From Pseudovibrio sp. Alg231-02 (GTDB taxonomy: Bacteria > Pseudomonadota > Alphaproteobacteria > Rhizobiales > Stappiaceae): 64,000 nt of DNA. Positions 48,703-57,561 of this stretch are shown here, piece by piece (position 1 is the stretch's first letter; each line of letters begins with the position of its first letter). The notes under the pieces are model-generated. The model did no database searches, was not told the origin of the DNA, and saw nothing but the letters and a program-made list of their open reading frames with translations. Both the position numbers and the translations under genes were made by a program. The stretch is taken from contig NZ_FREX01000005.1 of the NCBI RefSeq assembly GCF_900143565.1, forward strand, positions 186,001-250,000. The letters run 5' to 3'.

Positions 48703-49455
48703 CTAGTCATTTCTGACGGTTAGGTGCATTCGGTCAGCAGCCACATAGGCTCGACCAATTTGTATAGGCGCCCCACTCGCAATCACATTGATAGATTCCA
48801 TCACGAGCACAGGCGATCCCTCGGAGATCTTAAGCAACTCCGCATTATGCGCACTACAAAGCGCCGCCGTAATCCGGGTTTCCTGACGCCGATAATCACC
48901 GAAACCATACTTCTCCATGATCTTGGTGATCGAGTTAGTCTCATTCAAATCTGAAGGCAGATTGGGAAAGCGAGACACTTCAAACCAGCGCGTTCCTGCG
49001 ATAATTGGTGTGCCATCTGCGTAACTCACAGACTCACATTTAAACAGTGCAGTGCCTGGTTCAATCTCCAACAGTTCGGATGTGTAAGCATCTGCAATCA
49101 CTTCGGTCGTGCGGAAGATATCCCCATAAACCTCCTGCGCCTGACCCGACAAGTTCTCCGAAAAGCGCGTGCGCGGACCGATGGGATAGACCAGCGGAGC
49201 CTTGGCAACAAAGGTTCCCCGCCCCTGATCTGAACGTAAAAAACCCTCTTCGATCAAAGTGGAAATCGCACGCCGAACAGTATGGCGGTTAACCTCAAAG
49301 CTATGTGCAAGCTCTTGTTCTGCAGGGATTTTCTCCCCCTCAGAAACCTCAGCTCGCGAAAGCTCAGAGCGCAGTACTTCAGCAATCTGCTTCCACATGG
49401 CAACGCCCGCACGTCGCTCAACAGGAGAGAATTCAAATTTCATCGCATTCGTCAT
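48703..49455 (-). CDS. phnF: PhnF, GntR/HutC-family repressor of phosphonate genes
   Basis: About 250 residues, start ATG 49455 (ATG 49443 is also possible). The N-terminal winged helix has KIPAEQELAHSFEVNRHTVRRAISTLIEEGFLRSDQGRGTFV, and the C-terminal UTRA domain is typical of PhnF. It is divergent from phnG with a perfect inverted repeat in the gap, so it probably represses both itself and the cluster. The 3' end converges on the CYTH-CHAD gene. Confidence 0.92.
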   Translation of the reverse strand: MTNAMKFEFSPVERRAGVAMWKQIAEVLRSELSRAEVSEGEKIPAEQELAHSFEVNRHTVRRAISTLIEEGFLRSDQGRGTFVAKAPLVYPIGPRTRFSENLSGQAQEVYGDIFRTTEVIADAYTSELLEIEPGTALFKCESVSYADGTPIIAGTRWFEVSRFPNLPSDLNETNSITKIMEKYGFGDYRRQETRITAALCSAHNAELLKISEGSPVLVMESINVIASGAPIQIGRAYVAADRMHLTVRND

Positions 49456-49499
49456 GTCTTCGTCATGAAACAACACTAATCAGTTGGCGAGCAAAATAT

Positions 49500-49519: not shown

Positions 49520-49639
49520 CATTAGTTCTAGCTTAGCAACCAAATTCAGACGCGCGGATCCAATCTTTCGACAAACCCGCAAGGCGTCACCACACAATGC
49601 CAGAGAACCAGCGTGTTCCTGAAAGTTAAAGGGGCTGAA

Positions 49640-50110
49640 ATGACGGCAAGTTCGCTCAAAGAGCAATCACCGGAAATTGCAGCTAGGCAGAATGCCCTGG
49701 GCATTCTGGCAAAGGCCTCAGCGCAAAACCTTGCAGAAGCCTGGAAAAACCTCGGTTTAGAGCCGAGCTACACGGTTATCCGCCCAGCAGAAATCGGGCT
49801 CGTGATGGTCCGTGGCCGCGCTGGTGGCACCGGCGCTCCCTTCAACATGTGTGAAGCGACCGTCACTCGCTGCGTCATAGCTTTGGACGACGGGACCACC
49901 GGTTTCGGTCAAACCCTTGGCCGCGAAAAACAAAAGGTTCTGCTAGCAGCTCTCATTGACGCTCTTTGGCAACAACAAGAACACCGGGTTCTTGTTGAGA
50001 CGAAGGTTCTTCAGCCATTAGCCTCCGCTCAAGAACAAGCAGAAAACGAAACACGCGCTGAAGTCGCAGCCACCAAAGTTGATTTCTTCACCATGGTTCG
50101 GGGAGAATAA
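49640..50110 (+). CDS. phnG: C-P lyase complex subunit PhnG
   Basis: A 156-residue subunit of the PhnGHIJ core that attaches and processes phosphonate as ribose 1-phosphonate triphosphate. The family pattern VMVRGRAGGTGAPFNMCEATVTRCVI is seen at residues about 54-80. Start ATG 49640 behind AAAGGGG; the frame begins nine codons earlier. Next gene starts one base after its stop. Confidence 0.94.
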   Translation: MTASSLKEQSPEIAARQNALGILAKASAQNLAEAWKNLGLEPSYTVIRPAEIGLVMVRGRAGGTGAPFNMCEATVTRCVIALDDGTTGFGQTLGREKQKVLLAALIDALWQQQEHRVLVETKVLQPLASAQEQAENETRAEVAATKVDFFTMVRGE

Positions 50111-50111
50111 T

Positions 50112-50744
50112 ATGAGCACGCAAACAGCCTCCTCAATCTTCGCCAAAGCGCCTGCTCCGGGTCTGGCAGATCCAGTCCACGACGCCCAGTCCGTATTCCG
50201 CTCCGCCATGAACGCACTGGCGCAACCCGGAACTGTGCAACAGCTGGACAATCTCACACTTAGCCCTCCTGCTCCACTGTCTGTAGCTGCGACAGCGCTC
50301 GTGCTGACACTTTGCGATTATGACACACCGCTCTGGCTGGATCCTGCGCTCGCAACCAATGAAACCGTCAAGAATTACATCCGCTTCCACACGGCAGCAC
50401 CCTTCGTTGAAAGCCCTGCAGAAGCCGCTTTTGCGCTGGTCTCGGATGTAAAACTGCTCCCTGCTATCGCAAGCTTTGCCGCTGGCAATGCGGAATATCC
50501 AGACCGCTCAACCACGATCGTTTTGATGGTCGATGAGCTCACCGAAGACGACGGTATCACGCTGAAAGGTCCGGGCATAAAAACTGAGAAGCAGTTCAGC
50601 ATTGCTCCCGCACCAGCAATGTTTTGGCAGCAGATGCAAGACAACAGCACACTCTACCCACTCGGCATCGACATCATTTTTGCTGGAACCAATCAGGTCG
50701 TAGGCCTGCCTCGCTCCACTAAAATCACCGGTTTGGAGGCTTAA
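50112..50744 (+). CDS. phnH: C-P lyase complex subunit PhnH
   Basis: A 210-residue core subunit. The pattern GLADPVHDAQSVFRSAMNALAQPG near the N-terminus and LCDYDTPLWLDPAL are typical, as is PRSTKI near the C-terminus. Its start codon lies one base after the phnG stop. Three bases separate it from phnI. Confidence 0.94.
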   Translation: MSTQTASSIFAKAPAPGLADPVHDAQSVFRSAMNALAQPGTVQQLDNLTLSPPAPLSVAATALVLTLCDYDTPLWLDPALATNETVKNYIRFHTAAPFVESPAEAAFALVSDVKLLPAIASFAAGNAEYPDRSTTIVLMVDELTEDDGITLKGPGIKTEKQFSIAPAPAMFWQQMQDNSTLYPLGIDIIFAGTNQVVGLPRSTKITGLEA

Positions 50745-50747
50745 CTC

Positions 50748-51863
50748 ATGTATGTTGCTGTGAAAGGTGGCGAGAAAGCCATCCGAAACGCTCACAAGCT
50801 CATGGCACGGGATCGCCGCGGCGATACCAACGTGCCATCCCTGAGCCTCAAGCAAATCTCTGAGCAGCTTTACCTCTCTGTCTCCCGCGTGATGGCAGAA
50901 GGTTCTCTGCATGATGCAGAACTGGCAGCACTCGGCATCAAGCAATCTCGCGGCGATCTCATCGAGGCTGCCTTCCTGATGCGTGCTTACAGAACAACCC
51001 TGCCACGCTTTGGGTATTCCAAACCAATCGACACCGCTAAGATGCTGATCCGTCGCCGTATTTCCGCAACTTACAAGGATCTTCCAGGCGGACAGTTACT
51101 CGGACCAACCTTCGATTACACCCAGCGCCTGCTCGATTTCAAACTGGCAGCAGATGGCGAAGCTCCAGCACCAGAAGTGCAGGAGTTCGAGAAGGAAGAG
51201 GTCGTCCCACGCGTGACAGATCTCCTCAATGAGGAAGGCCTGATTGAACCAGATGAGCCAATCGCACCGGATGCTCCAGTAGGTGACATCACCCGCGAAC
51301 CGCTCACCTTCCCAGCAGACCGTGATCTGCGTTTGCAGAATCTGGCACGCGGTGACGAAGGTTTTCTGCTGGCACTTGGCTACTCCACCCAGCGTGGTTT
51401 TGGCAGAACTCACCCGTTTGCAGGAGAAATTCGTCTTGGGGAAGTCGAAGTTGACTTCTTCATGGAAGAGCTCGGCTTCGAAGTTCCCCTTGGCACCATG
51501 ACAGTCACCGAATGTCAGATGATCAACCAGTTTCAAGGTTCGGCTTCTACACCACCACAATTCACTCGCGGTTATGGTCTGGTTCCCGGACAGGGAGAGC
51601 GCAAAGTCATGGCAATGGCTCTGGTGGATCGCTCTTTGCGGGCTGAAGAGCTGGGCGAAGAAATAGACTCCCCAACGCAAGATCAGGAGTTCGTTCTGTC
51701 TCACTCAGACAATGTGCAGGCCACCGGCTTCGTTGAGCACCTCAAACTGCCCCACTACGTCGATTTCCAGTCAGAACTGGAGCTGATCCGCAAGATTCGC
51801 AAAGAGTGGCAAGGGAAACGTGAAGCGGCTGAACAGGAACTCGTAGCGGAGGCAGCACAATGA
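50748..51863 (+). CDS. phnI: C-P lyase subunit PhnI (purine ribonucleoside triphosphate phosphonylase)
   Basis: A 371-residue protein that displaces adenine from ATP with methylphosphonate in the first step. Starts MYVAVKGGEKAI, the family signature, and has LARGDEGFLLALGYSTQRGFGRTHPFAGEIRLGEVEV in the middle and LSHSDNVQATGFVEHLKLPHYVDFQSEL near the end. Length matches E. coli PhnI (354) with a small insert. ATGA overlap with phnJ. Confidence 0.95.
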   Translation: MYVAVKGGEKAIRNAHKLMARDRRGDTNVPSLSLKQISEQLYLSVSRVMAEGSLHDAELAALGIKQSRGDLIEAAFLMRAYRTTLPRFGYSKPIDTAKMLIRRRISATYKDLPGGQLLGPTFDYTQRLLDFKLAADGEAPAPEVQEFEKEEVVPRVTDLLNEEGLIEPDEPIAPDAPVGDITREPLTFPADRDLRLQNLARGDEGFLLALGYSTQRGFGRTHPFAGEIRLGEVEVDFFMEELGFEVPLGTMTVTECQMINQFQGSASTPPQFTRGYGLVPGQGERKVMAMALVDRSLRAEELGEEIDSPTQDQEFVLSHSDNVQATGFVEHLKLPHYVDFQSELELIRKIRKEWQGKREAAEQELVAEAAQ

Positions 51864-52771
51864 CCGAGCGTGTTGAAACACAAGGCATCTCCGACGAGCA
51901 CTACAACTTCGCTTATCTGGATGAGCAAACCAAACGCATGATCCGCCGCGCGATCCTCAAAGGCATCGCGGTCCCCGGCTATCAGGTTCCCTTCGCCGCC
52001 CGCGAAATGCCAATGCCATACGGCTGGGGCACCGGTGGTATTCAGGTAACAGCTGCAGTCATCGGCAAGCACGATTGCCTGAAGATGATCGATCAGGGGT
52101 CAGACGACACCACAAACGCCGTCGCCCTGCGCAACTTCTTTGTCGAAACAACAGGCGTAGACACTACCACAAAGACAAAAGACGCCAGCATCATCCAGAC
52201 CCGTCACCGCATCCCGGAAGAAACGCTGACAAAGGATCAGGTGCTCGTCTATCAGGTTCCGATCCCAGAGCCACTCCGCTTTCTGGAACCGCGCGAAACC
52301 GAGACCCGTAAGATGCACGCACTGGAAGAATACGGCCTCATGCATGTGAAGCTCTACGAGGACATCGCAAAGTTCGGCCACATAGCAACTGCCTACGCCT
52401 ACCCGGTCATGGTGCAGGACCGCTATGTGATGGACCCTTCCCCGACGCCAAAGTTCGACAATCCAAAGATGGACCAGATGGAAGCGCTCCAGCTGTTTGG
52501 CGCAGGCCGCGAAAAACGCATCTATGCCATCCCACCACATACCAAAGTGGTGAGCCTGGATTTTGAAGACCATCCATTTGAAGTGACCAAGTTCGACCAG
52601 CCTTGCGCCATCTGCGGGGCAGAAGAGGTCTATTTGGATGAGGTCATTTTGGATGACGACGGCAACCGCATGTTCGTGTGCTCTGACAGTGATTTCTGCG
52701 AGGAACGCCGCGAGGCCGGCCATGTCGGGCACCTTGGAACCAATCCTCTGGAAGCAGAAGGAAACGACTAA
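51860..52771 (+). CDS. phnJ: C-P lyase PhnJ (radical SAM alkylphosphonate carbon-phosphorus bond cleaving enzyme)
   Basis: A 303-residue enzyme that breaks the C-P bond with a 4Fe-4S cluster and SAM. The cluster cysteines are visible in CAICGAEEVYLDEV and, further on, CSDSDFC; the catalytic thiyl Cys is the last in this set. The N-terminus has NFAYLDEQTKRMIRRAILKGIAVPGYQVPF, typical of PhnJ. Starts within the phnI stop and its own stop overlaps the phnK start by one base (TAATG). Confidence 0.95.
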   Translation: MTERVETQGISDEHYNFAYLDEQTKRMIRRAILKGIAVPGYQVPFAAREMPMPYGWGTGGIQVTAAVIGKHDCLKMIDQGSDDTTNAVALRNFFVETTGVDTTTKTKDASIIQTRHRIPEETLTKDQVLVYQVPIPEPLRFLEPRETETRKMHALEEYGLMHVKLYEDIAKFGHIATAYAYPVMVQDRYVMDPSPTPKFDNPKMDQMEALQLFGAGREKRIYAIPPHTKVVSLDFEDHPFEVTKFDQPCAICGAEEVYLDEVILDDDGNRMFVCSDSDFCEERREAGHVGHLGTNPLEAEGND

Positions 52772-53568
52772 TGTCTCTGGATATTCAAAGCTCTGAAGAC
52801 TTTCCGCTGCTTCAGGTCAGTAACACGACAAAACTTTATGGCGGCCGCATCGGCTGTAAAGACGTCAGCTTCGATCTCTATCCGGGTGAGGTGCTTGCAA
52901 TTGTAGGCGAGAGTGGCTCGGGCAAAACAACGCTGCTCAACTGCCTTGCAACGCGCCTCACCCCGACCTCAGGTTCGGTCAACTACCGCAATCGCATGGG
53001 CCAGATGCGCAACCTCTACGAAATGAGTGAAGCCGAGCGCCGCATGCTCATGCGTACCGACTGGGGTTTCGTCCACCAGCATCCAGCAGACGGCCTGCGC
53101 ATGACAGTCTCTGCAGGGGCCAACGTTGGTGAACGCCTCATGGCAGTTGGCGCTCGCCACTACGGCAACATCCGCGACACTGCCACCGATTGGCTAGGCC
53201 GCGTCGAGATCGCAGAAGACCGCATTGACGATGACCCACGCGCATTCTCCGGCGGCATGCGCCAGCGTCTCCAGATTGCCAGAAACCTCGTCACAGCCCC
53301 ACGACTGGTCTTCATGGACGAACCAACTGGCGGCTTGGATGTGTCTGTTCAGGCACGCTTGCTGGACCTCCTGCGCGGTCTTGTCGCCGACCTCGGTCTC
53401 TCCGTGATCATCGTGACCCATGATCTGGCAGTGGCCCGCCTGCTCTCACACCGTATTCTGGTGATGCGCCACGGTCATGTCATCGAAAGCGGACTGACAG
53501 ATCAGGTACTGGACGACCCGCAAGAGAGCTACACCCAGCTCCTCGTCTCCTCCATCTTGCAGCCATAA
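52771..53568 (+). CDS. phnK: C-P lyase-associated ABC-type ATPase PhnK
   Basis: A 265-residue ATPase that docks on the C-P lyase core rather than on a membrane. Walker A GESGSGKTT, signature [14 protein letters not shown], Walker B LVFMDEPTGGLDVS, switch VTHDLAV. The dipeptide-transporter-like C-terminus is normal for PhnK. Eleven bases before phnL. Confidence 0.93.
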   Translation: MSLDIQSSEDFPLLQVSNTTKLYGGRIGCKDVSFDLYPGEVLAIVGESGSGKTTLLNCLATRLTPTSGSVNYRNRMGQMRNLYEMSEAERRMLMRTDWGFVHQHPADGLRMTVSAGANVGERLMAVGARHYGNIRDTATDWLGRVEIAEDRIDDDPRAFSGGMRQRLQIARNLVTAPRLVFMDEPTGGLDVSVQARLLDLLRGLVADLGLSVIIVTHDLAVARLLSHRILVMRHGHVIESGLTDQVLDDPQESYTQLLVSSILQP

Positions 53569-53578
53569 GGACAAGACA

Positions 53579-54289
53579 ATGACAAACACTCCGAAAACCA
53601 AGGTGCTTGTTTCCGACCTTGCCAAGTCCTTCAAGATGCACTTGCGAGATGGCTTGGAAATCCCTGTCGTCTCCGGTGTGAACTTCTCCGTTTCAGCAGG
53701 AGAATGTGTGGTTCTTGGCGGTCCGTCAGGTTCGGGTAAAAGTTCAATCCTGAAAATGATCTACGCCAACTACCGTTGCCAGAAAGGGCAGATCCTGATC
53801 ACGGATGGTGATGAGATTGTCAACGTAGCCGACGCAACTCCACGCCGCATTATCCGCCTGCGCGAAACCACAATCGGTTACGTCTCACAGTTCCTCCGCG
53901 CAATCCCACGCGTCCCAGCACTCACGCTGGTTGCCGAACCTCTTATGGCGCAAGGCGTTGCAGAAGACGAAGCGTTTGAGCGCGCTGGCAACTTGCTTTC
54001 CCGCCTCAATGTGCCAGAGCGCCTCTGGCAGTTACCACCAGCGACTTTCTCGGGCGGAGAACAGCAACGCGTCAACATCGCCCGCGGTTTCATCGCGCAC
54101 TACCCGATTCTTCTTCTCGACGAACCAACCGCCTCACTCGATGCAGCAAACCGAGCTGTTGTAGTTGAGCTGGTGGAAGAGAAGAAAACGCAAGGTGTAG
54201 CAATGGTCGGCATTCTTCACGATCATGACGTTCGCGATGCCATTGCGGACCGGATCATCGACGTAACTTCATTCGCGTCGGCTGCATAA
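53579..54289 (+). CDS. phnL: C-P lyase-associated ABC-type ATPase PhnL
   Basis: A 236-residue ATPase, the partner of PhnK in the C-P lyase assembly. Walker A GPSGSGKSS, signature FSGGEQQRVNIARGF, Walker B LLLDEPTASLD, and the late VGILHDHDVRDAIADRI seen in PhnL. Ends ITSFA-like near the downstream acetyltransferase gene. Confidence 0.93.
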   Translation: MTNTPKTKVLVSDLAKSFKMHLRDGLEIPVVSGVNFSVSAGECVVLGGPSGSGKSSILKMIYANYRCQKGQILITDGDEIVNVADATPRRIIRLRETTIGYVSQFLRAIPRVPALTLVAEPLMAQGVAEDEAFERAGNLLSRLNVPERLWQLPPATFSGGEQQRVNIARGFIAHYPILLLDEPTASLDAANRAVVVELVEEKKTQGVAMVGILHDHDVRDAIADRIIDVTSFASAA

Positions 54290-54331
54290 AGCATATCCGA
54301 AAGCGGTATGCAGAGAAGGGAAACTCGCTCC

Positions 54332-54955
54332 ATGATAAAGCACCCCAAAATTGCGGAGACGGTCATTGAGTCAACCGTCACCCATCGAGAGGCTGCAGTT
54401 GGCAAGCAATGCGAAGTGCTTGGCCCAACCTATCTGGAATATTGTGAGATTGGCGACTATTCCTACATTGGCCCGAACTCAACGGTTGCGGACACCACAA
54501 TCGGCAAGTTCACGGCCATTGCATCCAATGTTCGCCTTGGCCCTCCCAATCATCCCCTGGAGCGGGTTTCCCAACATCGCTTTACCTACACCCCCGAATA
54601 CTACCGCGAAGATAAAGAACGGGATCACCAGTTCTTTGCTGATCGCAGGGCTGCGCGTGTCATTATAGGCAATGACGTTTGGATCGGACACGGCGTAACC
54701 GTGCTACCCAGCGTAACGATTGGCGACGGCGCAATCCTTGCAGCAGGCGCTGTGGTGGCGAAAAGCGTGGAGCCCTACACCATCGTAGGCGGTGTCCCGG
54801 CAAAACCGATCAAGAGACGCTTCTCCAAGGAAGCTGCTGACCGGCTGATCCAACTCAAATGGTGGGACTGGTCAGAGGACATAATCTTCGAGCGGCTCCC
54901 TCTGTTTCAATCGATGACTGTGGAAAGGTTTCTGGAACACTTCGAACCAGCCTGA
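54332..54955 (+). CDS. Phosphonate-cluster hexapeptide-repeat acetyltransferase (TIGR03308-like)
   Basis: About 207 residues, starting at ATG 54332 with AAGGGAAA eight bases upstream; an ATG at 54308 is in frame. Left-handed beta-helix repeats are plain (IGDYSYIGPNSTVADTTIGKFTAIA; VIIGNDVWIGHGVTVLPSVTIGDGAILAAGAVVAKSV), with the conserved GGVPAKPIKRRF tail. This xenobiotic-type acyltransferase recurs in phn operons and might, like PhnO, acetylate aminoalkylphosphonates, but the family is not characterised. Follows phnL by 42 bases. Confidence 0.88.
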   Translation: MIKHPKIAETVIESTVTHREAAVGKQCEVLGPTYLEYCEIGDYSYIGPNSTVADTTIGKFTAIASNVRLGPPNHPLERVSQHRFTYTPEYYREDKERDHQFFADRRAARVIIGNDVWIGHGVTVLPSVTIGDGAILAAGAVVAKSVEPYTIVGGVPAKPIKRRFSKEAADRLIQLKWWDWSEDIIFERLPLFQSMTVERFLEHFEPA

Positions 54956-55013: not shown

Positions 55014-55712
55014 ATGCGTTACTCAATCTATTTCACACACCCACAGTCAGCCACGCTCACGGAGTTGGGAAGCCAATGGCTCGGGCGCTCAGCCTTTTCC
55101 AATGAAAGCCTCGCACACCCGCACCTGAACGAGTTTGGGCCCGGGCACCTGCACTCAATCACCGAAGACGCACGTCGCTATGGCTTCCACGCCACCATGA
55201 AACCACCATTCCATCTGGCGGAAGGTAAATCGCAGGAAGATGCAAAAGCAGCTTTCAGCACGTTCGCCAAGCAAACATCTGCCTTCACCATCGAAGGACT
55301 TGCGCCAACCTTCCTCGGCAAGTTTCTCGCCCTGACACCGACGCAGCCGTCAGAACAGCTCAACGGACTGGCAGCGCAATGCATCAAACAGCTCGACCAT
55401 CTTCGCGCACCTTTGAGCGAACAAGACATCGAACGACGCCGCAAAGCGAACCTGACACCACAGCAGGATGCCTACATGCTGGAGTGGGGCTACCCCTACA
55501 TTTTCAAGCATTTCCATTTTCATATGACCCTGTCAAAACGACTTGAAGACGAGAACGAGCGCAAAGCTCTCAAAGCTGCCGCAGAAGACCACTTCAAGCC
55601 TGTCATTCATCAACCAATCTCCATTTCGCACCTCGCCCTCTGCGTTGAACCAGAGGCTGGGGCGCCATTTCAAGTCATTGAAATAAGACCATTGGAAGGA
55701 CAAGTAGCATGA
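55014..55712 (+). CDS. DUF1045 phosphonate-operon protein, 2H phosphoesterase fold
   Basis: A 232-residue protein of the DUF1045/TIGR03223 family known only from phosphonate gene neighbourhoods. It has the two HxT motifs that define 2H phosphoesterases: GFHATMKPPF near residue 60 and FHMTLSKRL near residue 168. Such enzymes open cyclic phosphodiesters. The C-P lyase path makes phosphoribosyl-1,2-cyclic phosphate, in E. coli hydrolysed by PhnP, which is missing here. The present protein is a candidate replacement (inference). Start ATG 55014; the stop overlaps the phnM start (ATGA), so the two are coupled. Confidence 0.9.
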   Translation: MRYSIYFTHPQSATLTELGSQWLGRSAFSNESLAHPHLNEFGPGHLHSITEDARRYGFHATMKPPFHLAEGKSQEDAKAAFSTFAKQTSAFTIEGLAPTFLGKFLALTPTQPSEQLNGLAAQCIKQLDHLRAPLSEQDIERRRKANLTPQQDAYMLEWGYPYIFKHFHFHMTLSKRLEDENERKALKAAAEDHFKPVIHQPISISHLALCVEPEAGAPFQVIEIRPLEGQVA

Positions 55713-56902
55713 GCGATGTATTAGTCGGCGAAGCGCCACATCAGACATCAACAATGGTCGAGCCACACACACCAATGACCTTCACCAACGCAAAACTGAT
55801 CCTCCCCGATCAGACGCTGGAAGGCACACTGGCAGTCGAAAATGGCATGATCAGCGACTTAAGCGACGGCAATACGTCCAATGCACTGGACTGCGAAGGC
55901 GACTACCTCATTCCCGGTCTTGTCGAGCTGCATACCGATCATCTCGAAAACCACTACAAGCCCCGCCCCGGCGTCACATGGAACGCAGTCTCTGCCGTTC
56001 AGGCCCACGACGCGCAGATTGCCTGTTCTGGCATCACCACCGTGTTCGATGCCCTGCGCGTTGGCATGGAAGACGACGCAGACCTGACTGCACAAGACAT
56101 GCGGGCCATGGCGGATGCAATCGAGATCGGTCAACAAGAAGGCCGCCTGCGCGCTGACCACTACATCCACCTGCGCTGCGAGGTTTCCGCCGACAATTGT
56201 GTTGAAGGCTTTGAGCTGTTCAATGACGATCCACGCGTTCGTCTCGCATCCTTGATGGACCACACACCGGGGCAACGCCAGTTCACCTCTCTGGATCAGT
56301 TCGAGCTTTACTACAAAACCAAGAAGGGTTTCTCGGACGAGCAAATGCAGGAATTCATGCTGCAAATGCAGGCCCGTGCAGATCGCAACTCCGATAAGAA
56401 CCGCCTTGCGATCGCAGACCGCGCCAAAGCTGCAGGCATGATGCTGGCCAGCCATGACGACGCGACCCTTGCCCACGTTGAGGAAGCAAACAAGTTTGGC
56501 ATCAACGTCGCTGAGTTCCCAACCACCATGGAAGCGGCAAAGGCCTCACACGAAGCTGGCATGGCTGTGTTGATGGGGGCTCCAAACGTGGTGCGCGGCA
56601 AGTCCCACTCCGGCAACATTTCCGCCCGTGAGCTGGCAGAAGCCGGTTATCTGGACGTCTTGTCCTCGGACTATGTTCCAGTCTCCCTTCTGCAAGCAGC
56701 CTTCTTGCTAGCCCAGCAAATTGAGCGCATCTCCATTCCCGAAGCCGTACAAAAGGTAACCAAGATCCCGTCAGAGGCTGTGGGCCTTACAGATCGCGGC
56801 GCACTTGAAGTTGGCCGCCGCGCGGACCTGGTGCAAGTGCGAATGGTTGGCGACGTGCCAATCGTCCGTGGTGTCTGGCGCGAAGGATATCGCGTCGCAT
56901 AG
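55709..56902 (+). CDS. phnM: PhnM, ribosyl triphosphonate pyrophosphohydrolase
   Basis: A 397-residue amidohydrolase-superfamily enzyme that removes pyrophosphate from ribosyl-1-phosphonate triphosphate. Metal ligands appear in LVELHTDHLENHYKPRPGV, the later DHTPGQRQ, and ASHDDAT. The extra N-terminal 23 residues relative to E. coli PhnM may be unused, since an internal Met precedes TFTNAKLILPD. Coupled to DUF1045 by ATGA overlap. Confidence 0.94.
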   Translation: MSDVLVGEAPHQTSTMVEPHTPMTFTNAKLILPDQTLEGTLAVENGMISDLSDGNTSNALDCEGDYLIPGLVELHTDHLENHYKPRPGVTWNAVSAVQAHDAQIACSGITTVFDALRVGMEDDADLTAQDMRAMADAIEIGQQEGRLRADHYIHLRCEVSADNCVEGFELFNDDPRVRLASLMDHTPGQRQFTSLDQFELYYKTKKGFSDEQMQEFMLQMQARADRNSDKNRLAIADRAKAAGMMLASHDDATLAHVEEANKFGINVAEFPTTMEAAKASHEAGMAVLMGAPNVVRGKSHSGNISARELAEAGYLDVLSSDYVPVSLLQAAFLLAQQIERISIPEAVQKVTKIPSEAVGLTDRGALEVGRRADLVQVRMVGDVPIVRGVWREGYRVA

Positions 56903-56928
56903 CACAGCTGATGAGAGGGGGATCTATC

Positions 56929-57561
56929 GTGACGGTTTTGGATACAGCTCAGGAGCAAGCAAAAAAGCTTGGCCCTGGCGCACTAATCATGGTCGTTGGG
57001 CCAAGCGGTGCAGGCAAAGATACACTGATTTATGGCTATAAAGAGCAGTGTGAAGGCGATACAAACATCATATTTGCCCGTCGCCTGATTACCCGTCCGG
57101 CAGATGCCGGCTCAGAACCGCACGAAGCAGTCTGCCACGAAGACATGTCGGAGCTCATCGATCAGGGACGCGTGGCATTGTCGTGGCCTGCTCATGGATT
57201 GACCTACGCTCTGCCGGAATGCGTCGATCACCACATCGCCAAAGGCGGGATTGCCATTGCAAATGGCTCACGAAAAGCCTTGGCAGAAGCCGTTGGCAAG
57301 TATGAGAAACTGCTGGTCGTACATATCACGGCACCAATCCACGTGCTCGCGCAACGCCTGTCCATGAGAGGCCGCGAAACCACAGAGGATATCGAGCAAC
57401 GTCTGAGACGCGCAGATCTTTCGCTACCGGAACTACCGCATCTGGTGGAAATACAAAACACAAACGACCCTCAGGACGGCATCAAGCAACTGGAACAAGC
57501 AATCACGGCATTTATGCGCGGAGCTTTTTCATTGCCTCTAAGCCCAGCAGGTGCGCGGTGA
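56929..57561 (+). CDS. phnN: PhnN, ribose 1,5-bisphosphate phosphokinase
   Basis: A 210-residue kinase that converts ribose 1,5-bisphosphate to PRPP. P-loop GPSGAGKDTL, then FARRLITRPADAG-SEPHEAV, FALSWPAHGLTYAL-type loop and a guanylate-kinase-like fold. I use the GTG at 56929 behind GAGGGGG; an ATG at 56911 precedes that site. Its last 50 bases overlap the 3' end of the convergent TetR gene. It ends the phn cluster. Confidence 0.93.
   Translation: MTVLDTAQEQAKKLGPGALIMVVGPSGAGKDTLIYGYKEQCEGDTNIIFARRLITRPADAGSEPHEAVCHEDMSELIDQGRVALSWPAHGLTYALPECVDHHIAKGGIAIANGSRKALAEAVGKYEKLLVVHITAPIHVLAQRLSMRGRETTEDIEQRLRRADLSLPELPHLVEIQNTNDPQDGIKQLEQAITAFMRGAFSLPLSPAGAR

Follow-up and report, generated by a model that had tools for sequence, protein, structure and literature searches.

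A DUF1045 protein of predicted 2H fold as the probable PhnP replacement in a Pseudovibrio C-P lyase operon

We analyzed 64,000 nucleotides of Pseudovibrio sp. Alg231-02 (contig NZ_FREX01000005.1, positions 186,001 to 250,000; the window) that carry a carbon-phosphorus (C-P) lyase operon, and in it a gene for a protein of the DUF1045 family (Table 1). With a probability of roughly 85%, this protein serves the C-P lyase pathway as a phosphodiesterase of the 2H fold, opening 5-phosphoribosyl 1,2-cyclic phosphate to give ribose 1,5-bisphosphate. The assignment draws on family, motifs, predicted fold, place in the operon, exclusion with PhnP in the genomes sampled, and company with phnN; from these we infer the substrate, the bond broken, the product, and the metal independence of the enzyme. 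That DUF1045 stands in for PhnP had been suggested by a sequence-only reading of the window. The idea is supported and very probably right, although unproven, and it is already in print.

In the accessible part of their paper, Martinez et al. (2013; PMC3840354) proposed the same role for RcsF, a 2H phosphoesterase of a marine cluster without phnP, and described a fosmid with the RcsF cluster that enabled an E. coli strain lacking phnH to phnP to use methylphosphonate for growth. The accessible text of a 2023 review (PMC10574752, citing Podzelinska 2009) gives figures for 54 operons, of which 27 have PhnP and 16 others, lacking phnP, have rcsF, and that of PMC8235418 (citing Hove-Jensen 2014) names DUF1045 a putative phosphoribosyl cyclic phosphodiesterase. 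DUF1045 is probably the same family as the rcsF of phn operons. A table from a phosphate-stress proteome study lists DUF1045 protein as raised (PMC10132767, seen in part). No enzyme assay of DUF1045 was found in the literature searched, subscription journals being mostly beyond reach. Our additions are a larger exclusion test, a third unrelated ring-opening enzyme (opener) as a comparison, and an argument from phnN for the product.

The open reading frame (ORF) encodes 232 amino acids without an internal stop. Its product is a full-length member of TIGR03223 (265.7 bits; curated cut-off, 248.95), the sole match in an NCBIfam scan at E ≤ 0.001, and also matches PF06299 (DUF1045; 194 bits) and PF13563, the 2′-5′ RNA ligase superfamily (30.3 bits; cut-off, 27). 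It had no match to the PhnP model TIGR03307 in that scan, so it is not a member of the PhnP family, and none to the PHP or NF041661 (PhnPP) models. The ATG at 55014 is backed as the start by the TIGR03223 model, which aligns from residue 1, by an AAGGA 5′ of it (a fair ribosome site), and by R2, conserved in 77 of 78 aligned DUF1045 copies. The closest named protein, from Pseudovibrio denitrificans, is 88% identical, and the genome holds a single DUF1045 copy.

The two HxT motifs that the sequence-only reading had taken as marks of a 2H phosphoesterase are present and conserved in the aligned copies (Table 1), which rules out their occurrence by chance; the two copies without H170 are broken pieces from one genome (G194). 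The 2H fold itself agrees with a structure model of high confidence (predicted local distance difference test score, 95.6), which matches 2H phosphoesterases, including the Arabidopsis cyclic phosphodiesterase (CPDase). A sequence search of the Protein Data Bank (PDB) found no DUF1045 relative. We recognized 2H superfamily membership by both HxT/S motifs, the fold, here a predicted one, and a PF13563 match, and all three were found.

Enzymes of the 2H type work through the histidines of their two HxT motifs. In the proposed pathway, PhnJ would free 5-phospho-α-D-ribosyl 1,2-cyclic phosphate, and DUF1045 would open the five-membered ring, with the two histidines as general acid and base and probably without a metal. 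The bond to O2 would be broken and the phosphate would stay on C1; the resulting ribose 1,5-bisphosphate would pass to PhnN of the same operon for conversion to phosphoribosyl pyrophosphate. DUF1045 would thus do the work of PhnP, an unrelated enzyme of the metallo-beta-lactamase (MBL) fold. The C-P lyase genes flank DUF1045 on both sides, in the order phnGHIJKL, hexapeptide-repeat transferase, DUF1045, phnM, and phnN, with phnF divergent on the minus strand. Coupling to phnM, also noted from the letters, is real: the DUF1045 stop overlaps the first phnM ATG (55709) as ATGA, and GGAAGGA precedes that ATG.

Anticorrelation of phnP and DUF1045 was checked in 398 Pseudomonadota species genomes and in one family (f43) of 250 genomes. 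PhnJ was over cut-off in 83 of the 398, and these comprised 62 genomes with DUF1045 only, 19 with PhnP only, 2 with neither, and none with both. Among the 23 phnJ genomes of f43, 21 had DUF1045 and 2 had PhnP (none both, none neither), in each case within a few kilobases of phnJ; one genome, G585, holds a second DUF1045 far from phnJ. Pooled, with two genomes common to both samples counted once, the 104 phnJ genomes include 82 with DUF1045 only, 20 with PhnP only, 2 with neither, and none with both. PhnP scores form two groups, ≥296 bits and ≤86 bits, and the call of presence is therefore not threshold dependent. For TIGR03223, a floor of 190 bits was applied, below its curated cut-off; outside the broken G194 copies, the next matches stand at ~33 bits. 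Matches in G210 (33.4 bits) and G288 (29.1 bits) were counted as absent, and a PhnJ match in G040 (18.9 bits) and three small TIGR03223 fragments of G194 were dropped. In 17 of 20 f43 loci, DUF1045 has phnF as its immediate neighbor on one side, and in 11 of 20 it is directly followed by a phnN of the same orientation. A DUF1045-phnM-phnN block is separated from phnG-L in several genomes belonging to the window's order.

A wider survey gave the same picture. A phnJ profile scan of named GTDB contigs yielded at least 586 confirmed places, of which the best 80 were used, each locus reaching up to 10 kb on either side of phnJ (some end at contig edges). Thresholds were >60 bits for DUF1045, >130 for PhnP (lowered from 150 to include L181, at 141 bits), >60 for PHP, and >40 for PhnN. 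PhnP was found in 29 of these 80 loci, DUF1045 in 17, a PHP protein in 12, and none of them in 22; no locus had two. The proposed anticorrelation thus holds, with DUF1045 and PhnP together in none of the 104 genomes and none of the 80 loci. Neither computational ground for refuting the sequence-only reading, PhnP in this genome or its regular company with DUF1045, was borne out. The PHP proteins came to light as a gene family confined to loci without PhnP and DUF1045. Their best model is NF041661, phosphoribosyl 1,2-cyclic phosphate 1,2-diphosphodiesterase (PhnPP), against which three tested proteins scored 225 to 295 bits, short of its cut-off of 500. Presence of phnN followed the opener: 28/29 PhnP loci, 14/17 DUF1045 loci, 0/12 PHP loci, and 3/22 loci with none.

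Searches were extended to the genomes behind the loci. PhnP was over cut-off in 1 of 49 genomes searched (17 with DUF1045 loci, 10 PHP, 22 none), namely, that of L167, where the phn cluster is split over two contigs; PhnP-like matches reached 116 and 111 bits in the L183 genome and ≤88 bits in the remaining genomes searched. DUF1045 was present in 6 of 49 genomes (27 PhnP, 22 none). It lies elsewhere in the genomes of five loci scored as none (L199, L210, L212, L221, and L241). The L180 genome (G697) is the sole one found with both DUF1045 and PhnP, in separate phn clusters: DUF1045 is on another contig (L250, 8461-9192), beside phnN, and L180 itself comprises the PhnP-bearing phn cluster and a portion of a third one. 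After these searches, 16 of the 80 loci still had no PHP of their own and came from genomes in which neither DUF1045 nor PhnP was found; PHP was sought in the 80 loci and in the window's own genome.

Several observations weigh against the assignment. In hhalign, the DUF1045 profile did not match E. coli ThpR alone, and the 2H link therefore rests on PF13563, the motifs, and the fold. The curated TIGR03223 cut-off is exceeded in only 41 of 398 genomes and 5 of 23 in f43, which is why the 190-bit floor was used. The complementing fosmid, by the accessible account, held many other genes. phnN was not seen in 3 of the 17 DUF1045 loci. TIGR03223 occurs without phnJ in 7 of 398 genomes, in 5 of these without phnM or phnN nearby, and 6 of the 62 genomes with phnJ and DUF1045 have no copy near phnJ, phnM, or phnN. 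DUF1045 labels change only twice on one phnJ tree and three times on another, in which the genome searches led five "none" loci to be counted as DUF1045 and one as PhnP. With so few changes and with related genomes, Fisher values such as 8e-17 overstate the association. Finally, PhnJ is divergent in the two f43 genomes that have PhnP, so that whole clusters differ there and not one gene.

In the leading alternative, DUF1045 is a phn-operon 2H enzyme acting on something else, for example, a pathway side product or a stray cyclic nucleotide, and its exclusion with PhnP is lineage history. 2H enzymes do act on several substrates, the independent switches are few, and copies apart from phn genes occur, also in phnJ-less genomes. 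We nevertheless judge this alternative improbable. On a midpoint-rooted tree, the PhnP clusters of gammaproteobacteria nest within the DUF1045-bearing phnJ clade; PHP, a third enzyme unrelated to the other two, likewise never shares a locus with DUF1045 among the best 80; phnN accompanies DUF1045 and PhnP and not PHP; and the scatter of copies remote from phn genes fits relocation.

That scatter was traced as follows. Apart from the window's own copy, 77 DUF1045 copies were placed: 49 are no more than 15 kb from phnJ (40 of them with phnM within 300 bases), 12 are near phnM or phnN, and 16 are near neither. The 16 orphans are dispersed over the DUF1045 tree with 11 label changes, a pattern as after relocation, and a single separate orphan subfamily was rejected on this ground; the tree and the DUF1045 locus profile left out the two broken G194 copies (L078). 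Genes resembling phnC and phnD adjoin one orphan, L065. Conversely, no opener lies within 15 kb of 20 of 89 phnJ places, and 18 of these 20 are in genomes with DUF1045 elsewhere.

Some copies have histories of their own. L083, L084, L085, and L100 are second, orphan copies in genomes that also hold a phn-linked one; three of the four have lost both HxT threonines and R142, and L083 and L084 adjoin an apparent FAD oxidoreductase gene. Two phnJ-less genomes keep phnM-DUF1045 (L050, G095) or phnM, DUF1045, and phnN (L056, G322), blocks that are either relics or parts of another pathway. In G194 (contig C103, L078), two broken copies stand beside further phn clusters, and an intact copy is in another phn cluster there. 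L075 (G067) and L076 (G339) are second, divergent phn clusters with their own transporter genes and a PhnJ ~46% identical to the references; no ring opener was found in the stretches retrieved.

The next alternative, that another enzyme of this genome opens the ring and DUF1045 does something else, is quite unlikely. PhnP had been said to be missing, and as a family member it is: in a genome of 5.96 Mb the top TIGR03307 match is 34.6 bits (cut-off, 272.25), and with 99.95% completeness we reject the idea that PhnP was overlooked through gaps. The best PhnP match belongs to an MBL protein (L001, 1474-2304; G000 contig C3), which shares H76, H78, D80, H81, H143, D164, and H200 with E. coli PhnP, most of its active-site residues, but not H222. 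We take the shared residues to be PhnP metal ligands; the adjoining gene is presumably tatD. Taken whole, this protein scores 57.8 bits to PhnP and 251.7 bits to its top-scoring family, NF038231 (GPMC; cut-off of 360 not reached), and PhnP matches of similar weakness (25 to 59 bits), perhaps to other proteins, occur in 7 of 7 phnJ-negative genomes searched. On residues and family scores, we rejected it as the true opener. The other candidate is the one PHP protein besides two of DnaE size, on contig C8; its match to NF038032 (249.3 bits; cut-off, 80) places it in the CehA/McbA family, it has no match to NF041661, and it was rejected as PhnPP. Neither protein accounts for the exclusion between DUF1045 and PhnP. 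Reports of phnP in Rhodobacterales, for example, in the accessible part of PMC8774927, may stem from such PhnP-like MBL paralogs.

Company with phnN speaks to the product. The PHP enzyme Elen0235 is described, in the accessible text of PMC11656708, as hydrolyzing both ester bonds of a cyclic phosphodiester. Such cleavage leaves nothing for PhnN. DUF1045 accompanies phnN as PhnP does, and the phosphate is therefore predicted to stay on C1, with ribose 1,5-bisphosphate as the product. That DUF1045 instead breaks both bonds to give ribose 5-phosphate and phosphate directly has its precedent in Elen0235 but is hardly credible, since phnN, missing from every PHP locus, is common in DUF1045 loci and lies two genes downstream here, and known 2H enzymes stop at the monoester.

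Tentatively, the pathway may have at least three unrelated openers (MBL PhnP, 2H DUF1045, and PHP PhnPP), with phnN kept only where the phosphate stays on C1, and among the 16 opener-less loci some, those of cyanobacteria, sulfate reducers, and a Pantoea, might use a further one. Three of the loci surveyed, L073 (G374), L074 (G377), and L243 (Pantoea sp. AS-PWVM4), are phnF-N operons with phnN, and searches of their genomes found neither PhnP nor DUF1045. Nine other C-P lyase loci, 17 to 21 kb long and for the most part cyanobacterial or from Thermodesulfobacteriota (L177, L183, L185, L186, L189, L193, L206, L213, and L230), showed no PhnP, DUF1045, PHP, or phnN in the locus. Against a further opener stand the incompleteness of several of the 16 loci, the search for PHP in loci only, and the 116- and 111-bit matches of the L183 genome.

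Elsewhere in the operon, phnM family models align only from about residue 23 of the ORF, placing its first 22 residues outside the family. For phnG, ATG 49640, preceded by AAAGGGG, is a likelier start than the one listed. The hexapeptide-repeat transferase belongs to a family (TIGR03308) with no assigned role in phn operons; relatives are present too in PHP-type loci without phnN. The palindrome between phnF and phnG is a candidate PhnF operator. It has no other exact copy in the window, and with ≤3 mismatches, 2 copies were found against 1.45 expected. A promoter scan gave 5 hits, against 4.5 expected, and did not outperform shuffles.

Table 1. Positions in the window of the DUF1045 gene, its motifs, and the other features of the phn operon
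Feature	Positions	Strand	Evidence
DUF1045/TIGR03223 protein, 232 amino acids, putative 2H phosphoribosyl 1,2-cyclic phosphate phosphodiesterase	55014..55712	+	TIGR03223, PF06299, motifs, predicted fold
First HxT motif, HAT, residues 59-61	55188..55196	+	H59 in 78/78, T61 in 75/78 aligned copies
Second HxT motif, HMT, residues 170-172	55521..55529	+	H170 in 76/78, T172 in 72/78 aligned copies
phnM	55709..56902	+	TIGR02318, 487.8 bits; NF011983, 588.8 bits; overlaps DUF1045 by ATGA
phnN, ribose 1,5-bisphosphokinase, next pathway step	56911..57561	+	TIGR02322, 188.1 bits (cut-off, 156)
Hexapeptide-repeat transferase of phn operons	54308..54955	+	TIGR03308, 244 bits (cut-off, 201.65)
phnL	53579..54289	+	TIGR02324, 335.5 bits
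phnK	52771..53568	+	TIGR02323, 402.4 bits
phnJ, C-P lyase proper, cyclic phosphate source	51860..52771	+	PF06007, 489.6 bits (G000:C16:237899-238714)
phnI	50748..51863	+	PF05861, 537.9 bits
phnH	50079..50744	+	PF05845, 225 bits
phnG	49613..50110 (ORF as listed)	+	PF06754, 168.9 bits
phnF regulator, divergent	48703..49476	-	TIGR02325, 238.3 bits (cut-off, 156.8)
Perfect palindrome TTGTCTA-N6-TAGACAA, TTGTCTATACAACTAGACAA	49500..49519	.	Between divergent phnF and phnG

If the assignment is right, DUF1045, found in 82 of the 104 sampled phnJ-bearing Pseudomonadota genomes, would gain an enzymatic function. A gap in phosphonate use (methane from methylphosphonate; phosphate from glyphosate) would close as well, at a step so far assigned in these bacteria only by inference; the company of phnN makes a sharp prediction on the product. 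Within TIGR03223/PF06299, labelled a hypothetical equivalog by NCBIfam, the protein shares the operon setting and has no defining difference. With E. coli PhnP (TIGR03307), it would share the reaction and product, and it keeps the same company with phnN; PhnP differs in its MBL fold, and the two families do not match each other. PhnPP (Elen0235, NF041661) would act on the same substrate in the same pathway but, unlike DUF1045, has a PHP fold, breaks both ester bonds, and lacks phnN in its loci. Among 2H enzymes, YjcG (PDB 2d4g) and E. coli LigT/ThpR (5ldi and others) differ in having RNA or unknown substrates. Arabidopsis CPDase (1fsi, 1jh6, and 1jh7) acts on ADP-ribose cyclic phosphate; it is ~15% identical to the DUF1045 protein and belongs to no C-P lyase operon.
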